The notes under the pieces are model-generated. The model made no database searches. It was not told the origin of the DNA and worked only from the letters and a program-made list of their open reading frames with translations. A program made the translations under genes and the position numbers. Below are positions 17,041 to 32,232 of a stretch of 64,000 nucleotides of DNA, piece after piece. Within the stretch, counting starts at the first letter, position 1; every line of letters begins with the position of its first letter. Source of the DNA: Ancylobacter defluvii (GTDB lineage Bacteria > Pseudomonadota > Alphaproteobacteria > Rhizobiales > Xanthobacteraceae); contig NZ_JAHBGD010000019.1 of assembly GCF_018390605.1 (NCBI RefSeq), positions 1-64,000 on the forward strand, read 5' to 3'.

Positions 17041-17081
17041 CTCTCGGTCTCCTCGCAATCAGGCATCAGCGTGTGCAGGCA

Positions 17082-18044
17082 TCAGCGTGTGGCGGTACGC
17101 AGCGTGTCAGGGCGTGCCCGGTCGCCCCGGAGCCGGGCCAGCCAGACGCCCGCCCCCACCATTTCGGCGATCACGTCGGCCATGACCTTGGCCACCGCCT
17201 CGCTGCCGCGCGGGTTCATCGTGCGCTGCGAGACCACGACCGACAGCCGCCAGGACGGGGTGGGATCGACGATCGGCACGGCGACCATCTCGCCGCGCTC
17301 CATCTCGTCGGAAAAGGCGAAATGCGGCATCACCGCCAGCGCCTTGCGGGCACGCACCATGCGGGCGATGGCGGGAAGGCTGTCACAGGCCATGGCGTTG
17401 GGCACCACATCGTGGCGGGCGGCGAACTGCTCGATCACCGTGCGCATCACATTGGGCGCGCCGGGCAGCACGATGGGAAGCGCGAACATATCGCGGAAGG
17501 AGATGCTGCCGAGCGCCGCCACCGGATGATCCGGCGGCACGAACAGCATCAGGTCCTCCACCATCATCTCGGTCCACGCCACATGCTCGAAGGCCTTGTG
17601 GTCGTAGAGCAGGGCGACGTCCAGCCGCCCCAGCTGGATGAAGTCGTCCAGATAGCCGGTCATCGCTTCGACGATGTGCAGCGTGATGTTCGGCTGGCGC
17701 TCCGCCATGGCGGTGATCAGCGGCAGGGACAGGCCGCGGCACGCCGAGGTGGGCAACCCCACCGAGACCCGCCCGGACGGAGTCTGCGATTGCGAGCGCA
17801 CGACGTCGCGTGTGCGCTCGACCTCCTCGAGGATGCGCCGCGCGTGGTCGTAGAGCTGCTGCCCGATCTCGGTCGGCGTCACGCCGCGGGCATGGCGCAG
17901 CAGCAGCTCGACCCCGAGTTCCTCCTCCAGATTCTTCATCTGCTGGCTGAGCGAGGGTTGCGCGATGCGCAGCACCTCGGCGGCACGCGAGAAATTTCCG
18001 CTTTCGGCAATCTGAACGAAATATTTGAGCTGACGCAGATCCAT
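17082..18044 (-). CDS. LysR-family transcriptional regulator
   Basis: 320 aa. The N-terminal winged helix is MDLRQLKYFVQIAESGNFS followed by LRIAQPSLSQQMKNLEEELG (residues 1-60), of the CbbR/CynR/Nac branch. An effector-binding domain follows from about residue 90. ATG 18044 begins the standard LysR N-terminus; the longer reading to 18131 runs into the A+T-rich promoter. It faces the binding-protein gene of the long plus-strand operon across a 306-bp gap and heads the deaminase-amidase operon, so it is placed to control both. Confidence 0.92.
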   Translation of the reverse strand: MDLRQLKYFVQIAESGNFSRAAEVLRIAQPSLSQQMKNLEEELGVELLLRHARGVTPTEIGQQLYDHARRILEEVERTRDVVRSQSQTPSGRVSVGLPTSACRGLSLPLITAMAERQPNITLHIVEAMTGYLDDFIQLGRLDVALLYDHKAFEHVAWTEMMVEDLMLFVPPDHPVAALGSISFRDMFALPIVLPGAPNVMRTVIEQFAARHDVVPNAMACDSLPAIARMVRARKALAVMPHFAFSDEMERGEMVAVPIVDPTPSWRLSVVVSQRTMNPRGSEAVAKVMADVIAEMVGAGVWLARLRGDRARPDTLRTATR

Positions 18045-18350
18045 GGACAGGCCTTTCATCGCCAACTCTGCCGCGCAAAGGCCAAATGTCAAATGACTAA
18101 AAAATAGTCCATATGCACAAACTATTGACACTAGCTTTCAATTTATTAAGTAAAAACAATAAGATACATGAATCATAGAGTCATATGAATTGCCTATAAT
18201 TCATTGCAATAGTTATTGCCTATATCACCGATTGGAAAATCATCTTTGTCGATAGGCCACACTTATACGTAGCCTCGCTTCGTACCCGACAGTAACGGGC
18301 CCACACGCCCACCCCATCCGTTCATCCTGGCCACGACAGGAGAAATAAAC
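18045..18350. promoter_or_regulatory. Divergent control region with 10-bp direct repeats
   Basis: This 306-bp non-coding gap separates the LysR gene from the plus-strand importer-hydrolase operon. Its middle (about 18090-18245) is strikingly A+T-rich. ATTGCCTATA occurs twice, at 18189-18198 and 18215-18224, 26 bp apart on the same face of the helix (about 2.5 turns), with palindromic ATTGCAAT at 18203-18210 between them. The arrangement suggests LysR recognition and activation sites. A ribosome site AGGAGA lies 7 nt before the ATG at 18351. Confidence 0.6.
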
Positions 18351-19541
18351 ATGTCTTCCAAGGGACTTATGCGCAGCCAGCTTCTGGCGGCGACGGTGGC
18401 GTTCGGCCTTTTGAGCTCGGTGGCACACGCCCAGCAGCAGCCCTGCATCGGCAACTCGGCCGCCGTCACCGGCCCGGCCGCGTTTTCCGGGCAGGCCATC
18501 AAGATGGGCGCGCAGATCGCCATTGACGAGATCAACGAGGCCGGCGGCGTGCTCGGCCAGAAGCTGCGGCTGGTGCAGTATGACGACGCTGGCGCGCCGC
18601 CGCGCGGCGTCGACAACACGAGGCGCATCGCGCTGGCCGACAAGTGCATCGCGGTGCTGGGCGGCTTCCATTCCACCGTCGCGGTGGCGCAGGTCGAGCC
18701 GGTGCACGAGATCGGCATCCCCTACATGGGCGTGTGGGCGGCCAACACCAAGGCGGTGGAGAACGGGCGCGACCCGAACTTCATGTTCCGCGTCTCCGCC
18801 AAGGACAAATGGGTCGCCCGCTTCCTCGTCGACGAGGCGCTTAAGGTCTCGAAGGACGGCAAGATCGCGTTCTTCTACGAGAACACCGGCTGGGGCAACG
18901 GCGCGCTCCCGGACATCAAGGCGGCGATGGCCGCGCGCGGCAAGGAACTCGTCGCGGCGGAGACCTTCAACTGGAACGACCAGGACATGTCCCCGCAGGT
19001 CATCCGCGCCCGCGATGCCGGCGCGGAAGTGGTGATGATCTGGTCGCTCGACCGCGAAGGCAACCAGGTCCTGCGCGCCATGGACAAGATCGGCTACAAG
19101 CCGGCCGTCATCGGCGCCTGGGGCATCAGCGGCAATCTCGGCGAGCTCGCCGGCCCGCTCGCCAATGGCGTGCGCGTCATGCAGACCTATTCCTTCCTCA
19201 CGCCGCAGAGCGAGACGGGCAAGAAGATGCTCGCGACGCTGGCCGCCAAATACGGCCTGAACGATCCCTCGGCGATCAAGGCGGCATCCGGCATCGCCGA
19301 TGCCTATGACGCCGTCTACATCCTCGCCGATGCCATCAAGATCGCCGGAGCCTTCGACTGGGCGAAGGTCCAGAAGGCGCTCTACGAGGTCAATCGCGAC
19401 GGCCTGGTGGCGCCCTACAAGCCGGCCTTCGACAAGTCCGACCCCGAGCGGAACGACGCCCTGCTGCCGGAGAACTACCTGCTCGCGGTGTGGCACGACG
19501 GCAAGCTGATCCCCTTCAAGGGCTCGCCCTACGACAAGTGA
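18351..19541 (+). CDS. Branched-chain-type ABC transporter periplasmic binding protein (Peripla_BP_6)
   Basis: 396 aa with Sec signal peptide (about residues 1-27, VAHAQQ cleavage area). The mature part has the LivK-type two-lobed pattern: GQAIKMGAQIAIDEINEAGG near its start, LVQYDDAGAPPRG, and GFHSTVAVAQVEPVHE. First gene of a liv-type operon; the permease begins 62 bp later, after a strong GC hairpin. Members of this family bind amino acids, amides, ureas and aromatic acids, so the ligand is open. Context with deaminases and amidases suggests a nitrogen compound. Confidence 0.9.
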   Translation: MSSKGLMRSQLLAATVAFGLLSSVAHAQQQPCIGNSAAVTGPAAFSGQAIKMGAQIAIDEINEAGGVLGQKLRLVQYDDAGAPPRGVDNTRRIALADKCIAVLGGFHSTVAVAQVEPVHEIGIPYMGVWAANTKAVENGRDPNFMFRVSAKDKWVARFLVDEALKVSKDGKIAFFYENTGWGNGALPDIKAAMAARGKELVAAETFNWNDQDMSPQVIRARDAGAEVVMIWSLDREGNQVLRAMDKIGYKPAVIGAWGISGNLGELAGPLANGVRVMQTYSFLTPQSETGKKMLATLAAKYGLNDPSAIKAASGIADAYDAVYILADAIKIAGAFDWAKVQKALYEVNRDGLVAPYKPAFDKSDPERNDALLPENYLLAVWHDGKLIPFKGSPYDK

Positions 19542-19546
19542 ACCGG

Positions 19547-19571
19547 GGACGGCGGCGCACCGCCGCCGTCC
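19547..19571 (+). terminator. Strong GC hairpin after the binding-protein gene (attenuator-like)
   Basis: GGACGGCGGCG, loop CAC, CGCCGCCGTCC: a perfect 11-bp stem starting 5 nt after the stop codon, followed by TTCTC and no T-run. It probably stabilises the upstream message or partly terminates, giving excess binding protein over membrane components. Confidence 0.55.
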
Positions 19572-19603
19572 TTCTCACCGGCACGATGCGAGGACCCCGG
19601 CAT

Positions 19604-20479
19604 ATGTCGACCGTGGCGCAATACATCTTCTCCGGGCTGGCGATCGGCGGCATCTACGCGCTGGTCGCCCTCGGCTTCCACATCATGTGGTCCGCCGCCC
19701 GCGCGGTGAATTTCGCCCATGGCGACACGCTGATGATCGGCGGCCTCATGGCCGCCTATCTGGTGGCGAGCGGATGGTCGCTCGTCCTCGCCTGCGGGCT
19801 GGCGATCCTGGCCGGAGGCGCCTTCGGCTTCGTTCTCGAGCGTCTTGCCGTCCGTCCCTTTGCCGGGCAGGCAAACTCCATCGGCTGGATGCTGACCACC
19901 ATCGCCGTCGGCATCATGGTCGAGAGCCTGGCGACGATCGAAACCCAGGGCTATGCGCTCCCCCTGCCCTCGCCCGGCGTCGCCGGCTCGGTGCAGGTCT
20001 TCGGCGCCGGCCTCTACCCGCAGGAACTGGTCATCCCCGTCATCGCGGTGATCGCCATGGCCGGGCTGCGCCTGCTCCAGCGCCACACGCTGATCGGCCG
20101 CGCCATGCAGGCCGTCGCCCACAACAAGAACGCCGCGGCGCTGATGGGCATCGACGTCAATCTGGTCATCGCCTTTTCCTTCGCGCTGGCGAGCCTCACC
20201 GGCGCGGCGGCGGGCGTGCTGATCGCGCCGGTGGTGCAGGCCTCCGCCACCATGGGCGTGCTGCCGGGGCTCAAGGGCTTCGCGGTCGCCATCATGGGCG
20301 GCATCACCTCGGCGCCGGGCGTGGTGCTCACCGGCCTCGCCTATGGCGTGATCGAGAAATTCGTCGAGGGCTACATCTCCACCGCGGCACGCGAGATCGT
20401 CGGCTTCTCGCTGATGATCGTGGTGCTGCTCGTCTTCCCGCAGGGCCTGTTCGGCAAGCGCGAGGTGGCCAAGGTATGA
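19604..20479 (+). CDS. Branched-chain-type ABC transporter permease, LivH family
   Basis: 291 aa, LivH size, with about eight membrane segments. Family patterns: GLAIGGIYALVALGFHIMW at the N-terminus, NFAHGDTLMIGG, and MGVLPGLKGFAVAIMGG near the C-terminus. ATG 19604 is chosen because it begins the hydrophobic domain. Its stop overlaps the start of the LivM-LivG fusion as ATGA. It forms one half of the inner-membrane channel. Confidence 0.93.
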   Translation: MSTVAQYIFSGLAIGGIYALVALGFHIMWSAARAVNFAHGDTLMIGGLMAAYLVASGWSLVLACGLAILAGGAFGFVLERLAVRPFAGQANSIGWMLTTIAVGIMVESLATIETQGYALPLPSPGVAGSVQVFGAGLYPQELVIPVIAVIAMAGLRLLQRHTLIGRAMQAVAHNKNAAALMGIDVNLVIAFSFALASLTGAAAGVLIAPVVQASATMGVLPGLKGFAVAIMGGITSAPGVVLTGLAYGVIEKFVEGYISTAAREIVGFSLMIVVLLVFPQGLFGKREVAKV

Positions 20480-22269
20480 GCCGCCTCCACGCAATCGGCT
20501 TCCTGCTGCTGGCGGCGATCCTCGTCGCCGTGCCGCTCGCCTCGGGCAACGAGTACGAGCTGCGGCTGTTCATGCTGTTCCTGATCTACGCGATCATCGC
20601 CGTCGGGCTCAACGTGCTGGTCGGGCTCGCCGGGCTGGTCTCGCTCGGCCAGGCGGGGCTGTTCGCGCTCGGCTCCTATACCGGCGCCATCGTGGCGACG
20701 CGGCTCGGCTTCGACATGATCAGCTCCGGCCTGATCGCCGCCATCGTCGCCGGCCTGTTCGGCGTGCTGCTGGCCTATCCCACCGTGCGGGTGCGCGGCG
20801 TCTATCTCGCCGTCGTCACCATTGCCTTCGGCCTGATCGTCGAGAACGTCGCCATCGAATGGCAGTCGCTCACCGGCGGCACGACGGGTATCACCTCCAT
20901 TCCCGCCCCTAACGCCTTCGGCGTCGCGTTGTCGGGCTATGCCTATTACGGCGTGCTGGCGGTGTCGCTGTTCCTGCTGGTGCTGGCCACCCATCACCTG
21001 AAGAACTCGCGCTACGGCCGCGCCATGCTGGCGATCGCACAGAGCGAGACGGCGGCGCGGGCGCTGGGGCTTAACCCCACCGCCCTGCGCACCCTCGCCT
21101 TCGTGGTCGCGGCGGTGACGTCGGGCATCGCCGGCACCTACTATGCCTTCCTCAACGCCTATATCTCGCCCGACATCTTCACTTTCACCGACAGCGTGCG
21201 CTTCCTGCTGATGGTGATCCTGGGCGGCGCGGCCTCGACCTTTGGCCCGGTGATCGGCGCCTACATCCTCACCTATCTGCCGGAATACCTTCAGGAATTC
21301 GCGGTCTGGCAGAAATTCGCCTATGGCGCGCTGCTGCTCGTGGTGATGTTCGTGCTGCCGCGCGGCATCATGGGCTCGCTGGGCGCGCTCGCCGCGCGCC
21401 TGCGCCCGGCGGCGAAGGCCGCACCCCTGGAGGCTGGGTTGCCGGCCGAGGTCACGCTGGCGCCGGACGCGAGCCGGCCGCATGCCGAGCTGGTGGCGCG
21501 TGACCTCACGGTGCGCTTTGGCGGCCTCACCGCGCTCGCCTCCGCCTCGCTGCGGGTGAAGCCTGGCGAGATCCACGCGCTGATCGGGCCGAACGGCGCC
21601 GGCAAGTCGACCTTCGTCAACACCATTTCCGGCTTCTACCGGCCGACCTCCGGCGCCTGCGAACTCGACGGCGTCCAGCTCACCGGCCTGTCCTCCCATG
21701 AGATCGCGCGCGTCGGCCTCGCCCGCACCTTCCAGAACACCGAGCTGTTCGGCGAAATGACCGTGCTGGAGAACGTGATGGTCGGCTACCAGCAGCGCCT
21801 CGGCTACGGCATCGCCGCGGCGGTGCTGCACACGCCGGCGATGCGCCGCGAGGAGACCCGCTGCCGCCGGACGGCGGCCGGGCTGCTCGCCTTCGTCGGG
21901 CTCGAGGCCTATGCGAACGAGCAGGCCCGCTTCCTGCCCTTCGGCCTGCAGCGCCGGCTGGAGATCGCCCGCGCGCTCGCCGCCGGGCCGCGCCTGCTGC
22001 TGCTCGACGAGCCCGCCGCCGGCCTGACCACCCAGGAGATCGACGCGCTCGAGGCGATGATCCGCAAGATCGCCGGCCTCGGCGTCAGCGTGCTGCTCAT
22101 CGAGCACCATGTCGAGCTGATCATGGCGGTCGCCGACACCGTGACCGTCCTCGATTACGGCCAGGTGATCGCCAGCGACACGCCTTCCGTGGTGCAGGCG
22201 GACCCGCGCGTCGTCGAGGCGTATTTCGGCACCTCGGGCCATGGCGCCACCGCGGAGGCTTCGGCATGA
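20476..22269 (+). CDS. Fused LivM permease / LivG ATPase of branched-chain-type ABC transporter
   Basis: 597 aa. Residues about 1-305 are a LivM-type permease (VGLAGLVSLGQAGLFALGSY; VRVRGVYLAVVTIAFGLIVE). After an Ala/Pro-rich linker (about 305-340) comes a LivG-type ATPase with Walker A GPNGAGKST near residue 370, LARTFQNTELF (Q-loop region), LPFGLQRRLEIARAL signature and Walker B LLLLDEPAAGL. The joining is in frame with no break and is also known from other alphaproteobacteria. It overlaps LivH upstream and LivF downstream by ATGA, so all are co-translated. Confidence 0.93.
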   Translation: MSRLHAIGFLLLAAILVAVPLASGNEYELRLFMLFLIYAIIAVGLNVLVGLAGLVSLGQAGLFALGSYTGAIVATRLGFDMISSGLIAAIVAGLFGVLLAYPTVRVRGVYLAVVTIAFGLIVENVAIEWQSLTGGTTGITSIPAPNAFGVALSGYAYYGVLAVSLFLLVLATHHLKNSRYGRAMLAIAQSETAARALGLNPTALRTLAFVVAAVTSGIAGTYYAFLNAYISPDIFTFTDSVRFLLMVILGGAASTFGPVIGAYILTYLPEYLQEFAVWQKFAYGALLLVVMFVLPRGIMGSLGALAARLRPAAKAAPLEAGLPAEVTLAPDASRPHAELVARDLTVRFGGLTALASASLRVKPGEIHALIGPNGAGKSTFVNTISGFYRPTSGACELDGVQLTGLSSHEIARVGLARTFQNTELFGEMTVLENVMVGYQQRLGYGIAAAVLHTPAMRREETRCRRTAAGLLAFVGLEAYANEQARFLPFGLQRRLEIARALAAGPRLLLLDEPAAGLTTQEIDALEAMIRKIAGLGVSVLLIEHHVELIMAVADTVTVLDYGQVIASDTPSVVQADPRVVEAYFGTSGHGATAEASA

Positions 22270-23024
22270 ACGTCACCGACAGCGCGACCGACGCCCCCCT
22301 CCTCGACATCCGCAATCTCGAGCTGCGCTACGGCGCCGCCGTCGCGGTGCGCGACATCTCGCTCAGCGTGAAGCGCGGGCAGCTGGTGGCGGTGATCGGC
22401 AATAACGGCGCCGGCAAGTCCTCCATGGTGCGCGGCGCCAGCGGTCTGGTGCGCCCCTCGAAGGGACGGGTGTTCTTTCGCGGCGAGGACACCACCTCGC
22501 TGCCGGCCAACCGCAAGGTGCGGCGCGGCCTGGTCATGGTGCCGGAGGGGCGACTGCTGTTCCCCGACCAGAGCGTCGAGGACAATCTGATCCTCGGCGC
22601 CTATGCGCATGGCGGCCTCAAGGGTGCCCGCGCGCGGGAGACGCTGGAGAAGGTCCTCACCCTGTTCCCGCGCCTCAGGGAACGGCTCGCCCAGCAGGCC
22701 GGCTCGATGTCCGGCGGCGAGCAGCAGATGCTCGCCATCGCCCGCGGCCTGATGGGCGAGCCCGAATTGCTGATCATCGACGAACTCTCCCTCGGCCTGG
22801 CGCCGAAGATCGTCGACCAGCTGATGGCCGTGCTCGCCGAGCTCAACCGGCAGGGCCTGTCGATCCTGCTGGTCGAGCAGCTGGCCGCGCATGCGCTCGC
22901 CATCGCCGACCATGCCTATGTGATCGCCAACGGCCACGTGGTGCGGCACGGGCCGAGCGCGGAAATCGCGCGCGATCCCGAGGTGATGGAAGCCTTCCTC
23001 GGCAAGAAGAAATCCTCCGCCTGA
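22266..23024 (+). CDS. Branched-chain-type ABC transporter ATPase, LivF family
   Basis: 252 aa. Walker A is GNNGAGKSS with Ser in place of the common Thr. The Q-loop region is MVPEGRLLFPDQSVEDNLILG, characteristic of LivF. The signature is MSGGEQQMLAIARGLM and Walker B is LLIIDELSLGLAP. It pairs with the LivG part of the preceding fusion to power uptake. Start overlaps the previous stop as ATGA. The next gene follows after 45 bp. Confidence 0.94.
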   Translation: MNVTDSATDAPLLDIRNLELRYGAAVAVRDISLSVKRGQLVAVIGNNGAGKSSMVRGASGLVRPSKGRVFFRGEDTTSLPANRKVRRGLVMVPEGRLLFPDQSVEDNLILGAYAHGGLKGARARETLEKVLTLFPRLRERLAQQAGSMSGGEQQMLAIARGLMGEPELLIIDELSLGLAPKIVDQLMAVLAELNRQGLSILLVEQLAAHALAIADHAYVIANGHVVRHGPSAEIARDPEVMEAFLGKKKSSA

Positions 23025-23069
23025 GGCGCCCGCACGGCGCCGCCTTTCCTAACCGTTCAAGGAGCGAAC

Positions 23070-23765
23070 ATGTCCCGCGTCATCGACCTGAGCCTGCTCA
23101 TCGAGGACAACATGCCGGCCCACAAGCTGTTCCAGCGGCCGGTCATCACCACCCATCTGAGCCATGAGCGCTCGGCGGCGTTCGGCCTCGGCGTGCCGGG
23201 CGACGCCATGACCTTCCAGACCAACTTCATCGCCATGCTCGACCATGTCGGCACCCATGTCGATGCCTTCCGCCATGTGAAGCCGGATGGCGCGCCGATC
23301 GACGAGATGCCGCTCGAGATGTTCATGGGCAAGGCGGTGTGCTTCGATCTGCGGCACATCCCCGATCTCGGCGACATCACCGCCGAGGACATGCAGGTGG
23401 CCGAGGAGAAGGCCGGCGTGAAGGTGGACGGCCACATCGTGCTTTTGTGCACCGGCTTCCACGCCCGCAACTACCCGACGCTGGATTCGGTGTGGAAGAA
23501 CCCGCTGCTCACCGTCGAGGCGACGCGCTGGCTTTATGACCGCGGCTCGAAGATGCACGGCGTCGAAGGCCCTTCCACCGACAAGCCCAGCGACGACATC
23601 TTCGCCCAGCACCGCCTGTGCCGCGAGCTCGGCATCAGCCACTGGGAGTGGCTGGTCAATCTGGAAGAGCTGATCGGCAAGGGCGAGTTCCAGTTCTTCG
23701 GCGCGCCGCTGAAGTTCAAGGGCGGCTCCGGCTCGCCGGTGCGCGCTTTCGCCATCGTGAACTGA
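23070..23765 (+). CDS. Cyclase-family metal-dependent hydrolase (kynurenine formamidase/isatin hydrolase-like)
   Basis: 231 aa. The metal-binding motif reads HVGTHVDAFRH (about residues 57-67), where the family consensus H-x-G-T-H-x-D-x-P-x-H has Phe instead of Pro. GVEGPSTDKP near residue 165 is another family segment. Enzymes of this fold hydrolyse formamide, cyclic amide or lactam bonds. It follows the liv-type ATPase by 45 bp and precedes an amidase, so it probably acts on the imported compound. ATG 23070 lies after AAGGAGCGAAC. Confidence 0.86.
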   Translation: MSRVIDLSLLIEDNMPAHKLFQRPVITTHLSHERSAAFGLGVPGDAMTFQTNFIAMLDHVGTHVDAFRHVKPDGAPIDEMPLEMFMGKAVCFDLRHIPDLGDITAEDMQVAEEKAGVKVDGHIVLLCTGFHARNYPTLDSVWKNPLLTVEATRWLYDRGSKMHGVEGPSTDKPSDDIFAQHRLCRELGISHWEWLVNLEELIGKGEFQFFGAPLKFKGGSGSPVRAFAIVN

Positions 23766-23771
23766 ACGCCG

Positions 23772-23793
23772 GCCGGGCGGCGTGCCGTCCGGC
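23772..23793 (+). terminator. Hairpin between cyclase-family gene and amidase
   Basis: GCCGGGCGG, loop CGTG, CCGTCCGGC: a 9-bp stem with one G-T pair, 6 nt after the stop codon. No T-run follows, so it may be a message-stabilising or attenuating stem rather than a full stop. Confidence 0.35.
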
Positions 23794-23818
23794 ATCGTTC
23801 TTGCTCTTCAAGTCGGTG

Positions 23819-25267
23819 ATGATGTCCTGTTTGCTAGCACATGCTCCCTTTGCCCATCTGAGCGCCCGCGAGACGCGCGACCGTATCGCGCGGCGCGAGC
23901 TCTCGCCGGTGGAACTCACCCGCGCCGCGCTCGACGCCGCGCGGGCGACGCAGGACAGCCTCAACGCCTTCTTCCTCATCTTCGAGGAGGAGGCGATGGC
24001 CGCGGCGCGGGCGGCGGAGGAGACGGTCCTGCGCGGCGACGCGCTCGGCCCGCTGCACGGCGTGCCGTTCTCGGCCAAGGACCTGATGGCAGTGAAGGGC
24101 GCGCCCTATGCCTCCGGCTCGCGCGCCATGGCGGACAATATCGCCCAGGTCGATGCACCGGCGGTGCAGCGTGCCAGGGCGGCGGGCGCCATCCTCATCG
24201 GCAAGACCACCACCAGCGAGTTCGGCTGCAAGCCGGTCGGCGACAGCCCGCTGACCGGCATCACCCGCAACCCGTGGAACCTCGAAAAGACGCCGGGCGG
24301 CTCCAGCGCCGGGGCTGCCGCCTCGGTGGCGGCCGGCATCACCCCCTTCGCGCTCGGCACCGATGGCGGCGGCTCGATCCGCATTCCCTGCGCCTTTTCC
24401 GGCCTCGCCGGCCTCAAGGGGCAGTTCGGCCGGGTGCCGGTGTGGCCGGTCTCGGCGACGCCCACCCTCGCCCATGTCGGGCCGATCGCCCGCGACATCG
24501 CCGATGCCGCGCTCATGTTCGCCGCCATCGCCGGCTATGACGCGCGCGATCCCTTCAGCGTCGCCGGCCCGGTGCCGGATGTCGAGGCCGCCATCGGCGC
24601 CTCCATCGAGGGCATGCGCATCGCCTGGAGCCCGACGCTGGGCTATGCCCGCCCGGATGCCGAGGTGCTGCGCGTGACCGAGGCGGCAGCCCGGCGCCTC
24701 GCCGATCTCGGCGCCGTCGTCGAGGAGGTCGGGAGCGTCTTCGAGACCGACCCGGCCGATCTGTGGATCGCCGAGTTCTATGCCGGCGTCGGCACCCGCC
24801 TGCGCAGCGTCATCGAGAACCAGCGCGATTTGCTCGATCCGTCCGTCGCCGTGGTGCTGGAAGCCGCGCTCGGGCAGGAGATGCGCGCCTATTACGAGAC
24901 GGTGTTCAAGCGCTACGCGCTGCGGGACGAGATGCGCCGGTTCTTCGAGCGCTACGACGCCCTGCTCTCGCCGGTGCTGCCGGTCGCCTCGCTCGATGCC
25001 GGCCTCGACATGCCCGCGCATCTTTCCGACCGCAATCTGGTGAGCTGGGTCTTCTACACCTACCCGTTCAACCTCACGGGCCAGCCCGCCGCCAGCGTCT
25101 GCGCCGGTCTCGATGCCGCCGGCATGCCGGTCGGCCTGCAAATCGTCGGCCGGACATTGGGCGAGGCCGATGTGATCAGGCTCGCCAGCGCCGTGGAACG
25201 GCTGCGCCCGGCCAGCGACCTCCTGCCTCCCGCCCTGCGTCCTCCCCAAAGCGAGCACCTGTCATGA
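23819..25267 (+). CDS. Amidase (amidase-signature family, GatA/aryl-acylamidase type)
   Basis: 482 aa, full family length. Triad: Lys in GVPFSAKDLMAVKG, cis-Ser in TPGGSSAGAAASVAAG, and nucleophile Ser in TDGGGSIRIPCAFSG. The C-terminus has the usual PFNLTGQPAASVCAGL segment. ATG 23819 is used; an ATG directly follows at 23822. Its stop overlaps the next start as ATGA. It hydrolyses an amide bond in the cytoplasm; it is the second amidase of the island and not closely similar to the one at 14592. Confidence 0.9.
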   Translation: MMSCLLAHAPFAHLSARETRDRIARRELSPVELTRAALDAARATQDSLNAFFLIFEEEAMAAARAAEETVLRGDALGPLHGVPFSAKDLMAVKGAPYASGSRAMADNIAQVDAPAVQRARAAGAILIGKTTTSEFGCKPVGDSPLTGITRNPWNLEKTPGGSSAGAAASVAAGITPFALGTDGGGSIRIPCAFSGLAGLKGQFGRVPVWPVSATPTLAHVGPIARDIADAALMFAAIAGYDARDPFSVAGPVPDVEAAIGASIEGMRIAWSPTLGYARPDAEVLRVTEAAARRLADLGAVVEEVGSVFETDPADLWIAEFYAGVGTRLRSVIENQRDLLDPSVAVVLEAALGQEMRAYYETVFKRYALRDEMRRFFERYDALLSPVLPVASLDAGLDMPAHLSDRNLVSWVFYTYPFNLTGQPAASVCAGLDAAGMPVGLQIVGRTLGEADVIRLASAVERLRPASDLLPPALRPPQSEHLS

Positions 25268-25740
25268 GCACGCCCGAAATCTTCATGCGCCGCGCCATCG
25301 AGATCAGCCGGGACAAGATGCGCGCCGACGGCTCGGCGCCGTTCGGCTGCGTCATCGTCAAGGATGGCGAGATCGTCGGCGAAGGGGTGAACAACGTCGT
25401 CAATAATCACGACGCCACCTCGCATGGCGAGGTGGAGGCCATCCGCGATGCCGGCCGCCGCCTGAAGACCTGGGATCTCTCCGGCTGCGATCTCTACACC
25501 ACCTGCGAACCCTGCGAGATGTGCGTCGCCTCGATGTTCTGGGCGAAGATCTCGCGCATGTACTACGCGAACACGCTCAAGGACTGCACCGAGGTCGGCT
25601 TCGACCTCGAGCCCCTGACGCAGGCGGTTCGCGCCGACCTCCACGACCGCGCTCTCCCCGCCGAACGCCTGCTCGCCACCGAGGCGCGCGAGGTGCTGGA
25701 CGAGTGGGTCGCCTCGCCGGGGTTCAACGCCTTCCAGTGA
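25264..25740 (+). CDS. Nucleoside/guanine-deaminase-like CMP/dCMP deaminase family protein
   Basis: 158 aa cytidine-deaminase-fold protein, guanine-deaminase size. Zinc site: TTCEPCEMCVASMFW gives PCxxC. The usual H-A-E is SHGEVEAIR, so Ala is replaced by Gly while the zinc His and catalytic Glu are kept. The N-terminal APFGCVIVKDGEIVGEG is the conserved first strand pair. Expected reaction: hydrolytic removal of an exocyclic amino group from a purine- or pterin-like ring. Translation is coupled to the amidase by ATGA. Confidence 0.86.
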   Translation: MSTPEIFMRRAIEISRDKMRADGSAPFGCVIVKDGEIVGEGVNNVVNNHDATSHGEVEAIRDAGRRLKTWDLSGCDLYTTCEPCEMCVASMFWAKISRMYYANTLKDCTEVGFDLEPLTQAVRADLHDRALPAERLLATEAREVLDEWVASPGFNAFQ

Positions 25741-25822
25741 CGTGCCGACGCCTGCGCCCATGCCGGCTGCGGAAAAGGCCGGCCAATACCTTCAAACAAC
25801 CTTCCCGACGGAGCCATCGTCA

Positions 25823-26983
25823 ATGAACGAGTTCGACGACAAGATCACGGACTTCCGCGCGCTGCTTCATCCGCTCAATCGCCGCCGCTTCATGCAGGGC
25901 GCCAGCGCGCTGGCCGGCGCCGCCGCCATCGGCGCCTCGGCCGTGCCGGAGACCGCCTATGCGCAGGACAAGGTGCTGAACCTGCTCTGCTGGCCCGGCC
26001 ATGGCGATCCGGCCTTCGTGAAGCCCTTCGAGGAGAAGTACGGCTGCAAGGTCGTCGCCAAGGAATATGTCGGCGGCGAGCCGATGCTGGCGCTGATGAA
26101 CCAGTCGCCTCCCGGCACGTTCGACGTAGTGCTGGCGGATGCCGAATATATCGGCATGCTCGCCCAGAGCAGCCTCATCGACAAGATGGACCCGGCCGAC
26201 TACCCGCTCGCCGACTACTGGCCGGAGTTCCAGAAGTTCGGCCCGCACTGGGTGAACGAGAGCCTTTACTCGGTACTGATCCGCTTCGGCTATCTCGGCA
26301 TCGCCTATCGGACCGACGTGCTCAGCGAGAAGGATGTCGAATCCTACAAGGTGCTGTGGGACGACAAGCTGAAGGGCAAGCTCGGCTTCTTCGACTGGTA
26401 CCTGCCGACCATGGGCTGCCTCAGCCTGTATGATGGCAACAAGGCGCCCTTCGACATCTCCGCCGAAGCCTTCGACAAGCTGAAGAAGACCCTGTTCTCG
26501 CTGAAGCCGCAGGCCTCGGGCTTCTACTCGATGGCCGACCAGTTCTCGATGCTGACCAACGGCACCGCAGCGGCGATCCCCGGCGTCGGCGACTGGGTGG
26601 TGCTGCTCCTGCAGAAGAACGGCGTGCCGGTCTCGGCCACCGTTCCGAAGGAGGGCGGCATCCAGTGGACGGAATCGATGTCCATCGTCTCCTCCTCCAC
26701 CAAGAAGGACCTCGCCAAGGCGTTCATCCAGTACGCCTCCTCGCCGGAAGGCCAGGCCCGCTCGGCGATTCTGCCGTCCTACTGGGCTTCGATTCCCAAC
26801 AAGAAGGGCTGGGACTTGCTGATCAAGGATCATCCGGCCGAAGCCAAGGCGCTGCGCCATACCTTCGACGCGCGCAACGTCATGGATGAGTACAAGGACG
26901 GCAGGATTCACATCCGCCAGACCCCGGTGAAGCAGTCCATCGAGGAATGGAACGACGTCTGGTCGGAATTCAAGTCGATGTAA
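25823..26983 (+). CDS. ABC transporter periplasmic binding protein, spermidine/putrescine (PotD) type
   Basis: 386 aa with a twin-arginine-type signal (NRRRFMQGASALAGAAA, about residues 21-37, cleavage near YAQD). The mature part has the PotD/ModA-like start LNLLCWPGHGDPAF and the segment FDVVLADAEYIGML. It starts the second importer of the operon, 82 bp after the deaminase. Polyamine-type binding proteins also bind other cationic nitrogen compounds. The Tat signal is unusual for such proteins in enteric bacteria but common in alphaproteobacteria. Confidence 0.88.
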   Translation: MNEFDDKITDFRALLHPLNRRRFMQGASALAGAAAIGASAVPETAYAQDKVLNLLCWPGHGDPAFVKPFEEKYGCKVVAKEYVGGEPMLALMNQSPPGTFDVVLADAEYIGMLAQSSLIDKMDPADYPLADYWPEFQKFGPHWVNESLYSVLIRFGYLGIAYRTDVLSEKDVESYKVLWDDKLKGKLGFFDWYLPTMGCLSLYDGNKAPFDISAEAFDKLKKTLFSLKPQASGFYSMADQFSMLTNGTAAAIPGVGDWVVLLLQKNGVPVSATVPKEGGIQWTESMSIVSSSTKKDLAKAFIQYASSPEGQARSAILPSYWASIPNKKGWDLLIKDHPAEAKALRHTFDARNVMDEYKDGRIHIRQTPVKQSIEEWNDVWSEFKSM

Positions 26984-26991
26984 GCCCCAAT

Positions 26992-27023
26992 GCCGGACGG
27001 CGGCCTCCCGGTCGCCGTCCGGC
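26992..27023 (+). terminator. Strong hairpin after the PotD-like gene (attenuator-like)
   Basis: GCCGGACGGCG, 10-nt loop, CGCCGTCCGGC: perfect 11-bp stem beginning 8 nt after the stop. It occupies the same position as the hairpin after the other binding-protein gene at 19547-19571, which supports a role in raising binding-protein expression relative to the permeases. No T-run. Confidence 0.55.
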
Positions 27024-27072
27024 TCCGGCCCGTCACGCCTTCCGACCACGCCCCGCCACGAGCGCTCGCCCT

Positions 27073-27981
27073 ATGTCCGACGCACGATCCACCCAGACCT
27101 TGCCGTCGGCCTCACCGGTCACCTCATCGGCCCGGGCGACCCGGCTGCGTTTCGCCGCCTTCTGGGGTCTGCCGCCGCTGGTCTGGCAGCTGGCATTCTT
27201 CGTCGTGCCGCTCGGTTTCCTCGTCGCCATGACCTTCTGGTCGGTGAAGAGCTTCCGGCTGACGCCGGATGCGACGCTCGCCAACTGGACCTTCATCCTG
27301 AACGCCGGCTTCTTCCGCAACGCCTATGTCTACACCTTCTGGCTCGCCGGCCTCACCGCGCTGTTGGCAAGCCTGATCGCCTTTCCCGCCGCCTATACGC
27401 TGGCGTTCCGGCTGCAGCCGGCGACCCGGCGCTTCCTCGTCTTCATGCTGGTGGTGCCGTTCTTCACCTCCTATCCGGTCCGCATCTACTCGACGCAGAT
27501 CTTCTTCAGCCCGCAGGGCATCATCAACGCCGCGCTGCACCCGCTGGGCCTCGGCCCCATCTCGGTGCTCAACAGCCCGACCGGGACAGTGATCGGCTAT
27601 CTCGTGCTGACGCTTCCGCTCGTCGTGTTGCTGCAAACCTTCGCTTTGATGAACGTTCCCAAGACCTTGATCGAGGCAGCGCACAATCTTGGCTGCGGCC
27701 GGCTGCGCACCATTCTTACCGTGATCGTGCCCTCCGCCCGCATCGGGTTGGTCGTCGCGGCGACCTTCGCCTTCGTGCTCGCCTTCGGTGACTATGTGGC
27801 GCCGCTCTATCTCGGCGGCTCCAAGCCGCCGACCCTGTCGATCCTGATCGCCGACCAGGTAAAGTCCGGCAACCATTGGCCCCGCGCCTCGGTGGTCGCG
27901 GTGATCATGATACTTACCCTGGTGGCGGTGATGAGCACGATGCTCGCCCTCGCCTATGGCCGCAGGGGAGCGAAGCCATGA
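27073..27981 (+). CDS. ABC transporter permease, PotB type
   Basis: 302 aa with six predicted membrane segments after a 35-residue polar N-terminus. The EAA loop is EAAHNLGCGRLRTILTVIV (near residue 205). VVPFFTSYPVRIYS is a typical PotB-type segment. ATG 27073 (MSDARSTQ) begins after the hairpin. The stop overlaps the next permease start as ATGA. Partner of the PotC-like protein. Confidence 0.92.
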   Translation: MSDARSTQTLPSASPVTSSARATRLRFAAFWGLPPLVWQLAFFVVPLGFLVAMTFWSVKSFRLTPDATLANWTFILNAGFFRNAYVYTFWLAGLTALLASLIAFPAAYTLAFRLQPATRRFLVFMLVVPFFTSYPVRIYSTQIFFSPQGIINAALHPLGLGPISVLNSPTGTVIGYLVLTLPLVVLLQTFALMNVPKTLIEAAHNLGCGRLRTILTVIVPSARIGLVVAATFAFVLAFGDYVAPLYLGGSKPPTLSILIADQVKSGNHWPRASVVAVIMILTLVAVMSTMLALAYGRRGAKP

Positions 27982-28784
27982 GCCGGGCCCTGCTGCGCCG
28001 GGCGGCGCTCCTCGTCTGGACCTTTCTGGTCTTCACCTTCATCTTCGCGCCGATCATCTCGACGATCGTCTTCTCCTTCAACGCCGATCGCTTTCCGAGC
28101 CTGCCCTGGGGTGGCTTCAGCCTCCAGTGGTACGAGGCGGTCTTCGCCGATGCCAGCGTCCAGCGTGGTCTGGTGAACAGCCTGATCGTCGCCGGGGCGA
28201 CGTCGGTAATCGCCACCTTCCTCGGCTTCGCCGCCGCCTATGTCGACTACAGGTATCGCTTCTTCGGCAAGGCCGCCTACACCGCCATCGTCGCCCTGCC
28301 GCCGACCGTGCCGGTGGTAATCCTCGGCGTCGCGATGCTGACCTTCGAGGGACGCATCGGCCTCTCCGGCACGCTGACCGGCGTCACCGTCGGCCATGTC
28401 GTCCTCGCCGCGCCCTTCGCCATGGCGCTGGTCCGCATGCGCCTCGCCGATCTCGATCCCGATATCGAGAGAGCCGCGTGGAACCTCGGCGCGACGCCCT
28501 GGTCGACCATTACCGGCGTCGTCATCCCGTTCTGCCTGCCGGCGATCCTCGCTTCGATCTTCCTCACCGCCGCGGTCTCCTTCGACGAGTTCATGATCGC
28601 CTGGTTCGTCTCGGGGGTGAACGAGACGCTGCCGGTCCGCGTGCTTGCCATGCTCCAGGGACAGGTCAGTCCCCGCATCAACGCCATCGGCGCCCTCGTC
28701 TTCGCCGTATCGATGACTTTGGTCGTCGCCGCCCAGATTCTGCTCGGGCGCAACGGCCGTCGCAGCAAGGAAACCCAGCCATGA
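27978..28784 (+). CDS. ABC transporter permease, PotC type
   Basis: 268 aa with six membrane segments. The conserved N-terminal pattern of PotC proteins is visible: FIFAPIISTIVFSFNADR then SLQWYEAVFAD. The EAA loop is ERAAWNLGATPWSTITGVV. AVSFDEFMIAWFVSG is the usual C-terminal segment. Both ends overlap neighbours by ATGA, so the three importer genes are co-translated. Confidence 0.93.
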   Translation: MSRALLRRAALLVWTFLVFTFIFAPIISTIVFSFNADRFPSLPWGGFSLQWYEAVFADASVQRGLVNSLIVAGATSVIATFLGFAAAYVDYRYRFFGKAAYTAIVALPPTVPVVILGVAMLTFEGRIGLSGTLTGVTVGHVVLAAPFAMALVRMRLADLDPDIERAAWNLGATPWSTITGVVIPFCLPAILASIFLTAAVSFDEFMIAWFVSGVNETLPVRVLAMLQGQVSPRINAIGALVFAVSMTLVVAAQILLGRNGRRSKETQP

Positions 28785-29878
28785 CGACCACGAAAGCCGG
28801 CCCGATGCTGGAGATCGACCGTGTCGCCAAGCGCTATGGCGGAACGCTAGCCGTCGCCGAGGTGTCGTTCACCATCGGAAAAGGCGAGTTCATCGCGCTG
28901 ATGGGTCCCTCCGGCTGCGGCAAGACAACGACGCTGCGGATGATCGCCGGGCTCGATACGCCGAGCGAGGGAGAAATTCGCCTGTGGGGCCGGCGCATCA
29001 ACGAGGATGCCCCCTGGGAACGCGATGCCCCCCTGGTCTGGCAGAACTACGCGCTGTTTCCTTTCCTCTCGGTGGTGAAGAACGTCGAATTCGGCCTCAA
29101 GCAGCGCCGGGTGCCCGCCGCCGAACGCCGCAAGAAGGCGATGGAATGGATGGAGCGGCTCGGCATTGCCGGCTTTGCCGAGCGCGGCGTCGACCAGCTC
29201 TCCGGCGGCCAGCGGCAGCGCGTCGCCCTCGCCCGTGCCTTGGCTCTCGAACCCGAAATGCTGCTGCTCGACGAGCCGTTATCCGCCCTCGATCCGCATT
29301 TGCGGGTGCGCATGCAGTCGGAGCTGGTGCGCCTCCATCGGGAGCTCGGCATCACCTTCGTCTGCGTGACGCATAGCCATTCGGAAGCCTTCGCCATGGC
29401 GGACCGCGTCGTCATCATGAGCGAGGGTCGCGTGCAGCAGATCGGCGCGCCACGCGAGATCTACCGCCGCGCCTCCAACCGTTTCGTCGCCGAGTTCGTC
29501 GGCGGCAACAACCTGTTCTCCGGCACGGCGTCGAGCGCGGGCAACGGGGCGCTACGCGTCGAGGGACCGTTCGGCGCGGCGCTGGCGCCACGTCCGTCGG
29601 AACCGGCAATCCACGATGGTGCGGCGGTGACGCTGGTGGTGGCGGCCGACCGCATCGACATCGCCTCGGCCCGGTCGGGCATCGGCAACGAGATCGACGC
29701 ACGGGTAGTGACGCTGGAAGTCGTCGGCTCATCCGCCACGGTGTTTCTCGAAACCGCCGGCGGCGTGGATCTGCGCGTGCAGCGTTCTCTGCATGAAATC
29801 GAGAACACCCCTCTCAATCCCGGGCAGGCCGTCATCGCCCGCTGGTCGCAGGACGAAGGCTACTTCCTGCCGGCCTGA
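28781..29878 (+). CDS. ABC transporter ATPase, PotA type
   Basis: 365 aa: ATPase domain (1-240) plus TOBE regulatory domain (about 290-363). Walker A GPSGCGKTT, Q-loop WQNYALFPFLSV, signature QLSGGQRQRVALARAL, Walker B MLLLDEPLSALDP, switch His in CVTHSHSEAF. It powers the PotBCD-like importer. The next gene, an amidohydrolase, starts 31 bp later. Confidence 0.94.
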   Translation: MTTTKAGPMLEIDRVAKRYGGTLAVAEVSFTIGKGEFIALMGPSGCGKTTTLRMIAGLDTPSEGEIRLWGRRINEDAPWERDAPLVWQNYALFPFLSVVKNVEFGLKQRRVPAAERRKKAMEWMERLGIAGFAERGVDQLSGGQRQRVALARALALEPEMLLLDEPLSALDPHLRVRMQSELVRLHRELGITFVCVTHSHSEAFAMADRVVIMSEGRVQQIGAPREIYRRASNRFVAEFVGGNNLFSGTASSAGNGALRVEGPFGAALAPRPSEPAIHDGAAVTLVVAADRIDIASARSGIGNEIDARVVTLEVVGSSATVFLETAGGVDLRVQRSLHEIENTPLNPGQAVIARWSQDEGYFLPA

Positions 29879-29909
29879 CCCCCATCCAGTCCTTCTACGG
29901 AGTGAACCG

Positions 29910-31445
29910 ATGTCGACCTTCATTCGCGGTGCCACCGTGCTCGCCATGGGCGGCGCCTCCGGCAGCACGCCCTTCACCGGCGATCTGCTTGTCGAGGGCG
30001 ACCGCATCGCGGCGATCGGCCCGAACCTTCCGGTGCCGGACGGCGCCACCATCATCGAGGGCGCCGGCAAGCTGGTGATGCCAGGCCTCATCAACGCGCA
30101 CCTGCATTCCGGCGAGGCGCTGTTCAAGGGCCGCTACGACAATCTGCCGCTCGAATTGTGGATGCTCTATTCCTACCCCATTCTCGGCGCCAAGGCGCTT
30201 GCCGAGCGGATGATCTATCTGCGTTCCATGGTGGTCGCCATCGAGTCGCTGAAGACCGGCGTCACCTGCCTGACCGACGACATCTTCGAGGCGCCGCGCC
30301 AGTCGCTGGCGCAGCTCGGCGCCGCCGTGCAGGCCTATGACGATGCCGGCATCCGCGCCACCGTCTCCGGCCATGTGATGGACAAGGACTTCCTCGATTC
30401 CATCCCGTTTTCGCGCGAGCACGTCCCCGCCGACCTGCAGGCCGAGGTCGCCAAGCTCGGCGTGCCGACGACCGCGGAATATATCGACTTCGCCAAGGAG
30501 GCCTACGCCGCCTTCCATGGCCGCTCGGGCCGCATCCGCTTCATGGTCGCCCCCTCGGCGCCACAGCGCTGCACGCCGGAGCTGATGCAGGCGGCGAACG
30601 AGCTGGCGCTGGAATGGAAGGTGCCGTTCCACACCCACATCGTCGAGACCAAGGTGCAGGGCGTCACCGGCCCGGCGATCTACGGCAAGACGTTGATGCG
30701 CTACATGGACGATCTCGGCCTCATGCATTCCGGCACCACCATCGCCCATTCGATCTGGGTGACGTCGGACGATATCGCGCTGATGGGCGAGGCCGGCGTC
30801 TCCATCGTTCACAACACCATCTCGAACCAGAAGCTCGGCGCCGGCGTCGCCCCGGTGCGTCAGCTTCTCGACGCCGGCGTCAATGTCGCGCTCGGCTCGG
30901 ACGGCATCTGCTCCAACGATACGCCGCGCATGTTCGACGTGATGCATGCCTGCGGCCTGATCCACAAGGTGACGACGCCGGACTACAAGCAGTGGGTGAG
31001 CGCCGCCGAGGTGCTGCACGCCTGCACGCTTGCCGGCGCCAAGAGCGCGCTGATCGGCCACGAGGCCGGCTCGCTCGAAGCTGGCAAGAAGGCTGACCTG
31101 CTGATCATCAACCTCAACACGGTGAGCTTCACGCCGCGCAATGACATCCTCAACCACCTCGTCTATTGCGAGAACGGTTCATCCATCGAGAAGGTGATGG
31201 TGAACGGCGAGATCGTGGTCGAGAACGGCAAGCTGACCAAGATCGACGAAGAAGCCTTGCTCGCCGAGCTTCAGGCGGCGATGCCGGGCTTTAATGAGTA
31301 TCATTCCGGCGTGGAGCGGACGAACAAGGCGTTCGAACCTTCCTTCGACGCCATTCATCGCCGCTGCAACCAGATCGACATCGGCGTGCATCGCCTCATC
31401 GGCAACAGCGACATGTGGCCATCAACGCCGTCGGGGAACTTCTGA
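29910..31445 (+). CDS. Amidohydrolase, Atz/Trz-chlorohydrolase / SAH-deaminase type
   Basis: 511 aa, somewhat longer than the usual 440-480. Metal ligands: INAHLHSGEALF (HxH), VPFHTHIVETK (His with following Glu) and TIAHSIWVTSDD (His), and LGSDGICSNDTP with the catalytic Asp. A GGAG site lies 8 nt before ATG 29910. The family deaminates or hydrolyses C-N or C-Cl bonds of triazines, guanine, cytosine or adenosine-like rings. Its place after a cationic-compound importer and before a creatininase-family gene suggests stepwise opening of an N-heterocycle. The extra C-terminal tail is unassigned. Confidence 0.88.
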   Translation: MSTFIRGATVLAMGGASGSTPFTGDLLVEGDRIAAIGPNLPVPDGATIIEGAGKLVMPGLINAHLHSGEALFKGRYDNLPLELWMLYSYPILGAKALAERMIYLRSMVVAIESLKTGVTCLTDDIFEAPRQSLAQLGAAVQAYDDAGIRATVSGHVMDKDFLDSIPFSREHVPADLQAEVAKLGVPTTAEYIDFAKEAYAAFHGRSGRIRFMVAPSAPQRCTPELMQAANELALEWKVPFHTHIVETKVQGVTGPAIYGKTLMRYMDDLGLMHSGTTIAHSIWVTSDDIALMGEAGVSIVHNTISNQKLGAGVAPVRQLLDAGVNVALGSDGICSNDTPRMFDVMHACGLIHKVTTPDYKQWVSAAEVLHACTLAGAKSALIGHEAGSLEAGKKADLLIINLNTVSFTPRNDILNHLVYCENGSSIEKVMVNGEIVVENGKLTKIDEEALLAELQAAMPGFNEYHSGVERTNKAFEPSFDAIHRRCNQIDIGVHRLIGNSDMWPSTPSGNF

Positions 31446-31446
31446 A

Positions 31447-32232
31447 ATGCCCGTCTCCAACACCCTCATCGCCGATCTCACCTGGTACGACTTCGCGGAA
31501 AAGGTGAAGGCAAACCCGATCGTGTTCCTTCCCATCGGTTCGGTGGAACAGCACGGTCCGCATCTGCCGCTCTCCACCGATATCCTGCTGCCGCAGGCTA
31601 TCGCAGCGGAGGTGGCCGAGCGTGTCGGCGGCCTCGTCGCCCCGCCGGTGGCCTATGGCTACAAGTCACAGCCGAAATCCGGCGGCGGCAACCATTTTCC
31701 CGGCACGCTCAGCCTCGATGCCGGCGTGCTGATCGGCCTCGTGCGCAACGTCGTCAACGAGCTCGTGCGGCACGGCGTGCGCCGCATCGTGCTGTTCGAC
31801 GGCCATATGGAAAACCAGTGGTTCCTGGTCGAGGCCGCCGATCTCGCGCTACGCGATCAGGCGATGCTCGGGCGCAGCGACGTGAAGATCATCAAGCTCG
31901 GCTATTGGGAGTTCATCACCAAGACTACCGAGAAGGTGCTGTTTCCCGACGGCTTCCCGAGCTGGGAGCTGGAGCATGCGGCGGTGATGGAGACCTCCGT
32001 CATGCTGCACATCCGGCCCGATCTCGTGCGGAGCGAACTCATCCCCGACGGTCCGGCAGCGGATTTCCCGCCCTACGATATCTACCCCTTCGACACCCGC
32101 CCGATCCCCCCCACCGGGGTGCTCTCCTCGGCGGGCTCGGCCTCGGCGGAAAAGGGAGCGGCCGTTCTGGCGCAAGTGGTACCCGATATCGCCGATGCCC
32201 TGATCAAGGCCTTCGATGCACCGACAGCGTAA
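31447..32232 (+). CDS. Creatininase-family protein (creatinine amidohydrolase-like)
   Basis: 261 aa, family size. Metal-binding residues: GSVEQHGPHLPLSTD (Glu, His, Asp), GGGNHFPGTLSL, FDGHMENQWFL (usually NGHGGN), and LEHAAVMETS where the family commonly has HAGE-ETS. The last motif loses the Glu seen in creatininase. Family members open creatinine-type lactams or act on formamido-pyrimidines in flavin and peptide-cofactor pathways. It starts 1 bp after the amidohydrolase stop and is the last gene of the operon. Confidence 0.85.
   Translation: MPVSNTLIADLTWYDFAEKVKANPIVFLPIGSVEQHGPHLPLSTDILLPQAIAAEVAERVGGLVAPPVAYGYKSQPKSGGGNHFPGTLSLDAGVLIGLVRNVVNELVRHGVRRIVLFDGHMENQWFLVEAADLALRDQAMLGRSDVKIIKLGYWEFITKTTEKVLFPDGFPSWELEHAAVMETSVMLHIRPDLVRSELIPDGPAADFPPYDIYPFDTRPIPPTGVLSSAGSASAEKGAAVLAQVVPDIADALIKAFDAPTA

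Follow-up and report, generated by a model that had tools for sequence, protein, structure and literature searches.

What kind of compound does a bacterium collect with two complete ATP-binding cassette (ABC) importers and dismantle with five C-N hydrolases, all encoded in a single row of genes? The question is raised by 13 co-directional open frames on the plus strand, at 18351..32232, of a 64,000-nucleotide stretch of the Ancylobacter defluvii genome (contig NZ_JAHBGD010000019.1; genome size 5.28 Mb), which is called the window here. The genes follow in the order LivK, LivH, LivM-LivG, LivF, Cyc, AmdA, Dea, PotD, PotB, PotC, PotA, AtzTrz and Crn, and we refer to the first half, Liv-Cyc-AmdA, as module A and to the second half, Dea-Pot-AtzTrz-Crn, as module B. 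We see about an even chance that this operon serves the utilisation of creatinine and creatine, the last two hydrolytic steps likely being catalysed by enzymes non-homologous to the known ones; the substrates and all enzyme steps are predicted from sequence. A bolder version, which we put forward more tentatively, is a creatinine pathway that would be non-orthologous throughout, with Dea in place of CodA, Cyc in place of HyuAB and AmdA in place of N-carbamoylsarcosine amidohydrolase (CSH), the Liv-Cyc-AmdA cassette, which is found by itself in many proteobacteria, being dedicated to N-methylhydantoin scavenging. The pathway and the protein families are known; the combination of enzymes, if the reading is right, would be new.

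A first-pass annotation of this DNA had described a 14-gene co-directional operon. Its coordinates and direction hold, and its gene count falls to 13 frames (14 only when counted as domains) because a single 597-aa frame encodes LivM and LivG as a fusion (permease and ATPase, 20476..22269), annotated as the same fused frame in Bradyrhizobium sp. 186. The two importers, liv-type and pot-type, and the five C-N hydrolases are present as it described, and so is the coupling by ATGA or gaps of less than 100 bp: the 12 junctions measure, in operon order, 62, -4, -4, 45, 53, -4, 82, 89, -4, -4, 31 and 1 nt, so that five are ATGA overlaps, including the AmdA-Dea joint between both importer-hydrolase halves, and the largest gap is 89 nt. 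The same annotation proposed the import and dismantling of a ring-containing nitrogen compound, which fits, with its list of substrates now narrowed by relatives to creatinine or hydantoin. It also took the set to be the best candidate here for an undescribed system; the reactions are predicted to follow largely the same order as in the described creatinine route, and what would be new are the enzymes for some of the steps. Among named operons, the closest is found in Ancylobacter sp. Lp-2 (L083), with 89–96% identity per operon protein.

The substrate is suggested mainly by two congeners. On plasmid pLGM of A. pratisalsi and in A. radicis, an operon of the arrangement LysR2|CSH-HyuA-HyuB-Dea-PotDBCA-Crn encodes Dea, Pot and Crn proteins 74–84% identical to those of the window, and its CSH-HyuA-HyuB genes occupy the slot that Liv-Cyc-AmdA occupies in the window. 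Against N-carbamoylsarcosine amidohydrolase 1NBA, the isochorismatase-family gene there scores 248 bits; its second-best hit (125 bits) carries the same name. In the part of the literature available to us, HyuAB resembles the ATP-dependent N-methylhydantoin amidohydrolase of Pseudomonas putida 77 (PMC8453981), and the N-methylhydantoin route of creatinine ends with the opening of N-methylhydantoin and the cleavage of N-carbamoylsarcosine (PMC8864220); the A. pratisalsi HyuAB pair lies below the caprolactamase cut-offs. Since Dea, Pot and Crn are shared with these CSH-HyuAB operons, the ring-nitrogen substrate is narrowed to creatinine.

Crn (31447..32232) is itself above the creatininase equivalog cut-off (TIGR04448, 371.1 bits against 235), scores 274–276 bits against the chains of P. 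putida creatininase, and retains E34, H36, D45, H120, E122, W154, W174 and H178 of that enzyme, with methionine at Y121; we take these residues to have metal-binding or active-site roles. The Pot importer points in the same direction. Among 22 plasmid records with a PotD relative (E 1e-60), a creatininase lies within 5 kb in at least 14, as judged from the best 20 of 22 creatininase records, and Dea within 5 kb in three more; one record is the Bradyrhizobium Pot-AtzTrz-Liv-Cyc-AmdA operon, and in four, of which two were inspected, none of these was seen. In an order-wide sample, PotD relatives (E 1e-90) occur at 31 places in 28 of 347 genomes, with Crn (at least 44% identity) or Dea (at least 40%) near 15 places and Cyc-AtzTrz near one. 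The PotD tree unites the window, A. pratisalsi and A. radicis in one 13-row branch with 100/100 support. Azoarcus plasmid pAZKH carries, within 20 kb, an M24-family gene (called creatinase by its neighbourhood only), a creatininase, Pot (49–54%), HyuA (63%), HyuB (67%) and CSH (69%).

In the route that we propose, the Pot importer would take up creatinine or creatine, which Crn would interconvert. Its parts are a PotD-type binding protein with a predicted affinity for creatinine or creatine (25823..26983, SBP_bac_8, twin-arginine-like leader), the permeases PotB (27073..27981) and PotC (27978..28784) and the ATPase PotA (28781..29878). Dea (25264..25740), possibly assisted by AtzTrz (29910..31445), would deaminate creatinine to N-methylhydantoin, Cyc (23070..23765) would open this ring without ATP to yield N-carbamoylsarcosine, and AmdA (23819..25267) would split the latter into sarcosine, ammonia and CO2. 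The Liv importer, consisting of a LivK-type binding protein (18351..19541, Peripla_BP_6, PF13458), the LivH permease (19604..20479), the LivM-LivG fusion and the LivF ATPase (22266..23024), may take up N-methylhydantoin itself, a role suggested only by its standing with Cyc-AmdA. LivH, LivM-LivG, LivF, PotB, PotC and PotA were named by look and by annotated orthologues in module A loci or related operons, not by family scan. Sarcosine would pass to a SoxB-type sarcosine oxidase encoded elsewhere; all 30 genomes of the genus have a soxB match above its cut-off, as against none of the 14 control genomes, where 11 show weaker matches.

The two enzymes predicted to complete the route, Cyc and AmdA, have the catalytic motifs of their families intact. 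Cyc is a cyclase-family metal hydrolase (PF04199) with the motif HVGTHVDAFRH at residues 59-69. According to the portion of the paper accessible to us, one member of this family is isatin hydrolase, which is a cyclic amidohydrolase, has a metal site and bears the motif HxG[T/A]HxDxPxH (PMC6117287). An assignment of Cyc as isatin hydrolase was rejected on the features given there, as its motif has F for P and the translation lacks the GLQC/GLAS signature, and one as arylformamidase KynB (kynurenine formamidase) was rejected at 60.8 bits against the TIGR03035 cut-off of 223.05. Its structure model was of no use (predicted local distance difference test, pLDDT, 39). In Cupriavidus and, by look, also in Paraburkholderia and genome G238, Cyc and AmdA are separated by a CobW-type GTPase gene, which fits a metal-dependent enzyme. 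AmdA, an amidase-signature hydrolase (PF01425) and predicted N-carbamoylsarcosine amidase, has K87, S162 and S186 in at least 97% of 25 aligned rows; we presume these to be the Lys-cisSer-Ser triad of the amidase signature.

Dea, the predicted creatinine deaminase, has the CDA fold (PF00383) and a PCEMC zinc motif. Its group bears HGE in 26 of 26 rows from 22 different loci at the site where Bacillus subtilis guanine deaminase has HAE; the difference is not perfectly diagnostic, because when two relatives at 44% identity were added, G was present in at least 90% but not all of 13 rows. The structure model of Dea is good (pLDDT 87) and matches guanosine deaminases, guanine deaminases and TadA, so that the substrate is not told by structure. 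Guanine and creatinine have a 2-amino-4-oxo ring edge in common. The role of AtzTrz is the least certain assignment in the operon. This Atz/Trz-type amidohydrolase (Amidohydro_1), possibly a second cyclic-guanidine deaminase, belongs to the triazine/8-oxoguanine/methylthioadenosine (MTA) deaminase group and passed no equivalog cut-off among the best 25 of 41 families (best 281.9 bits against 609). Its candidate metal ligands H64, H66, H241/H243, E246, H280 and D331, which we assume to be such, are present in at least 97% of 19 rows.

The window genome was also searched for the classical enzymes of these steps. CSH has no match there at E 1e-30; its matches in 4 of 30 genus genomes fall into two at 99–100% and two at 36% identity. 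The HyuA orthologue of the A. pratisalsi operon finds only paralogues at 41% and 38% in the window genome, and its orthologues at 98–100% are confined to 2 of the 30 genus genomes. The M24 gene of a Mesorhizobium creatininase cluster, used as creatinase query, has no match at E 1e-30 in the window genome, and the classical creatinase route was dropped for this reason.

The operon was also compared within the genus. A Dea orthologue (at least 78% identity) occurs in 15 of 30 Ancylobacter genomes, window genome included, with Cyc about 2.2 kb upstream in eight, HyuAB-CSH there in two (A. pratisalsi, G136, and A. radicis, G103, where CSH-HyuA-HyuB replaces module A) and neither in five. The full operon is found in five (the window genome, G210/L083, G202, G211/L084 and G212/L085), three keep Cyc-AmdA beside module B without Liv (A. 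rudongensis G205, A. mangrovi G201 and G209), and five lack module A and retain LysR with Dea-Pot-AtzTrz-Crn (A. aquaticus G084, A. polymorphus G022, A. vacuolatus G165, strain 501b G186 and G204). Remnants lie between LysR and Dea in all four module-A-less loci inspected out of the five, G204 having been left out. The scar of A. aquaticus contains the livK 5' end, 59 nt of livMG and 287 and 197 nt of amdA (74 and 71% identical), that of A. polymorphus the 5' ends of livK and cyc, and those of A. vacuolatus and 501b short livMG pieces, with the alignment to the full L085 operon also reaching into the livK start; in A. rudongensis and A. mangrovi the livK start is directly joined to cyc. These scars indicate that a full operon lost parts of module A and kept LysR, its control region and module B and, since the end points differ, that there was more than one deletion event; judged from the alignments, the full operon is older than several of the losses. 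In excerpts of one paper, N-methylhydantoin is a dead end in Corynebacterium glutamicum, and HyuB/CshA of strain ATCC 14067 are proposed to carry on from it (PMC8864220); such a dead end fits the strains without module A. If the reading is right, the genus may also serve as a natural knock-out series, in which strains without the ring-opening half would be expected to stop at N-methylhydantoin.

A single LysR and control region are common to the full, the Liv-less and the module-A-less versions of the operon. The LysR-type regulator (17082..18044, minus strand, 320 aa, HTH_1 and LysR_substrate) is divergent from the operon, and an orthologue heads module A where it stands alone as well as the operons without module A. 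In the divergent control region (18045..18350) lie a LysR-box-like block, TGCCTATAA-N9-ATAG, and a second block, ATTGGAAAATCATCTTTG, both largely conserved in 10 aligned loci. The region was alignable in all 10 loci compared, with GCCTAT, CTATA, GGAAA and TCTTTG blocks invariant, and precedes LivK in the window and module B in strains without module A.

In a wider search, Cyc has a match at E 1e-30 in 34 of 119 family genomes, window genome included; the other matches comprise 11 at 83–90% identity, one at 59% and the rest at 37–45%. The surroundings were fetched for 20 family genomes. At the 11 close loci Cyc is always downstream of Liv genes and, where the contig reaches, AmdA follows Cyc in 10 of 10 and a LysR orthologue precedes in 10 of 10, and eight loci at about 43% share, besides Cyc, only importer paralogues with the operon. 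In a 398-genome phylum sample, five genomes, again including the window genome, match Cyc at E 1e-70: G308 has LysR|Liv-Cyc-AmdA, G538 has LysR|Cyc-AmdA-PotDBCA-AtzTrz without Liv, in G238 Cyc is accompanied by tripartite ATP-independent periplasmic (TRAP)-like genes and separated from AmdA by a CobW-like GTPase gene, both the importer and the GTPase being assigned by look, and G521 carries Cyc-AmdA. On a Cupriavidus oxalaticus plasmid (L105), Liv-Cyc-CobW-AmdA adjoins an amidase of the hydantoinase/carbamoylase family (TIGR01879, 394 bits, cut-off 204). A diaminopropionate ammonia-lyase gene also lies beside this set, and L105:15656-16606, which we presume to encode a D-carbamoylase, has an NCBIfam aguB match far below the cut-off.

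Several of these observations, and others, weigh against a single creatinine route, and some of them would be expected if the operon joined two pathways under one promoter, with module B for creatinine and module A for a different cyclic ureide or imide (hydantoin or 5-substituted hydantoins, for instance), the halves being joined because one regulator responds to a shared intermediate or to a need for nitrogen. We consider this rather unlikely, though it is the likeliest of the rival readings. The first-pass annotation had named orthologues scattered without linkage in relatives as evidence against its proposal, and this is half the case: module A stands without module B, in the stretches fetched, in 11 of the 119 family genomes, these 11 belonging to five other genera (two of them with short contigs only, 6.5 and 5.6 kb), as it does in G308. 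Cyc-AmdA is accompanied by a TRAP importer in Indioceanicola (annotated) and L124 (by look); both arrangements suggest that module A may naturally act on some other cyclic ureide or imide, and the Cupriavidus amidase also speaks for this. The five congeners with module B only have no ring opener and no carbamoylase beside Dea, and three loci that combine Pot with Crn, Dea, AtzTrz and a cytosine-deaminase-like gene (L111, on a Terrarubrum flagellatum plasmid, L168 and L169) have no Cyc, AmdA or HyuAB match, so that some holders of module B would either open the ring by other means or leave it closed. A. pratisalsi possesses a separate chromosomal LysR|Liv-Cyc-AmdA (Cyc 94%) besides its plasmid HyuAB-CSH, whose operon has a different LysR; the two arms are therefore not exclusive, and a strict rule of either HyuAB-CSH or Cyc-AmdA was dropped. 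Of the 31 PotD places, 15 are without Crn or Dea nearby at the identities given (three of them have a deaminase match at 30–31%, and several are on short contigs), PotD relatives at 41–47% are partly beside CE4-like or ureohydrolase-like genes instead, and creatininase-like genes also occur in clusters unlike creatinine use. Against two separate pathways stand the shared LysR and control region, the ATGA coupling of AmdA and Dea, the three genomes that lack Liv and keep Cyc-AmdA with module B (L087/L218, L092, L215), the single Liv-less Cyc-AmdA-Pot-AtzTrz unit of G538, and the finding that two species carry CSH-HyuAB in this slot.

Two further readings concern the deaminases. The substrate might be a different compound with a 2-amino ring (guanine-, pterin- or triazine-like), which Dea and AtzTrz would deaminate before Cyc opens it and AmdA cuts it, with Crn as a cyclic amidohydrolase acting on an intermediate; the closest solved relatives of Dea are guanine and guanosine deaminases, and AtzTrz, besides its deaminase group, has kin (53–54%) in Sinorhizobium and Ensifer beside a nucleoside hydrolase and a BMP-type importer. 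We find this improbable, as the same Dea-Pot-Crn block occurs with CSH-HyuAB, the Dea group differs from B. subtilis guanine deaminase in having HGE for HAE, and the Pot family repeatedly adjoins creatininase. The assignment of AtzTrz in the creatinine reading is weakened by the kin just named, by its absence from both CSH-HyuAB operons (A. pratisalsi and A. radicis) and by its split into two frames in Bradyrhizobium sp. 186. Crn might, alternatively, be the sole creatinine enzyme, feeding a creatinase-like route from creatinine through creatine, with Dea and AtzTrz acting on purines or pyrimidines, as several plasmid clusters of a creatininase, an M24-family gene and a Pot importer would suggest. 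This appears very improbable given the missing creatinase match in the window genome, and the two genus genomes with a creatinase match (88%, 2 of 30) are both without Dea (E 1e-30) and Cyc (E 1e-60).

How would a creatinine operon of this kind compare with known systems? With the N-methylhydantoin route of P. putida 77 and C. glutamicum ATCC 14067 it would have identical predicted intermediates, and its Pot/Dea/Crn block is common to the Ancylobacter operons with HyuAB and CSH. It differs in having Cyc and AmdA in the slot of HyuAB and CSH, and its two candidate deaminases are not of the CodA type, a cytosine-deaminase-like gene being located across LysR. The creatininase/M24 clusters on Mesorhizobium, Shinella and Azoarcus plasmids likewise combine a creatininase with a PotDBCA importer from the family found here, and that of Mesorhizobium sp. 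B2-1-8 also has sarcosine oxidase, whereas the window operon has no M24 gene. Isatin hydrolase and bacterial kynurenine formamidase share with Cyc the family and the HxGTHxD..H metal motif, and the former opens a five-membered lactam ring, as is predicted for Cyc; the missing GLQC/GLAS, the F for P and the low arylformamidase score set Cyc apart. Clostridium sp. FS41, an anaerobe unlike the window organism, is reported to have an ATP-independent N-methylhydantoin amidohydrolase activity, the same ATP-free reaction as predicted for Cyc, and its genome paper, in the part available to us, found only the gene of the known enzyme's subunit B (PMC4417704). Cyc is offered, from its gene context, as a gene candidate for ATP-free N-methylhydantoin hydrolysis. 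If this is true, genes for that reaction would be at hand, the cyclase-amidase pair that occurs with Liv, TRAP and Pot importers would receive its first role, and a candidate creatinine deaminase with its importer would become useful for creatinine assays. Among the literature matches listed, no paper was found on the gene set of the operon or on a cyclase-family N-methylhydantoin hydrolase, and none on creatinine use by Ancylobacter, for which the loosely matching search is a weak test.

Beyond LysR, on the minus strand, the first-pass annotation had noticed a deaminase-like amidohydrolase and a second amidase, and both are there: AmhB (15793..17058), a cytosine-deaminase-like companion gene below every cut-off among the matches listed, and AmdB (14592..15902; NF006169, 519 bits against 391). 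AmhB-AmdB also stands behind LysR in 4 of the 11 module A loci (genus g41: L034, L035, L037 and L038). LysR scores 188.6 bits as NAC against a cut-off of 309. A consensus scan of 17900-32700 gave no sigma-70 site, and terminator-like sites were at chance level. Strong RNA hairpins are located directly 3' of the LivK gene (19542-19603, -33.6 kcal/mol, z -3.0) and of the PotD gene (26984-27072, -40.0 kcal/mol, z -2.8), as if to favour the mRNA of the binding proteins over the remaining operon.

Related sets are found elsewhere in the window genome. A second PotDBCA-Dea set (C25:104845-109349, L173; PotD 55–57%, Dea 49–53%) is followed, by look, by a GntR-like regulator and a flavin-reductase-like gene, and a second creatininase-like gene (C5:128117-128869, L079; 48–49%) has SDR-like genes upstream and a ureohydrolase-like gene downstream, again by look. 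Minimal Pot-Dea sets occur on Variovorax, Agrobacterium and Rhizobium leguminosarum plasmids. In L130 (by annotation) and L182, L183 and L186 (by look), Pot relatives are beside a polysaccharide-deacetylase (CE4)-like gene, with a ureohydrolase-like gene in L183 and L186, possibly representing another cyclic ureide pathway. In the window itself, 90-13846 holds an acyl-CoA-type catabolic cluster, with thioesterase, carboxyltransferase, TRAP importer, HpcH/HpaI lyase, CoA transferase and acyl-CoA dehydrogenase genes on the minus strand, and a cupin regulator, biotin carboxylase, RidA-like gene and, by look, aldehyde dehydrogenase on the plus strand. At 40912-44336, a tandem pair of family-5 binding proteins is encoded in a single oligopeptide-type ABC cluster.

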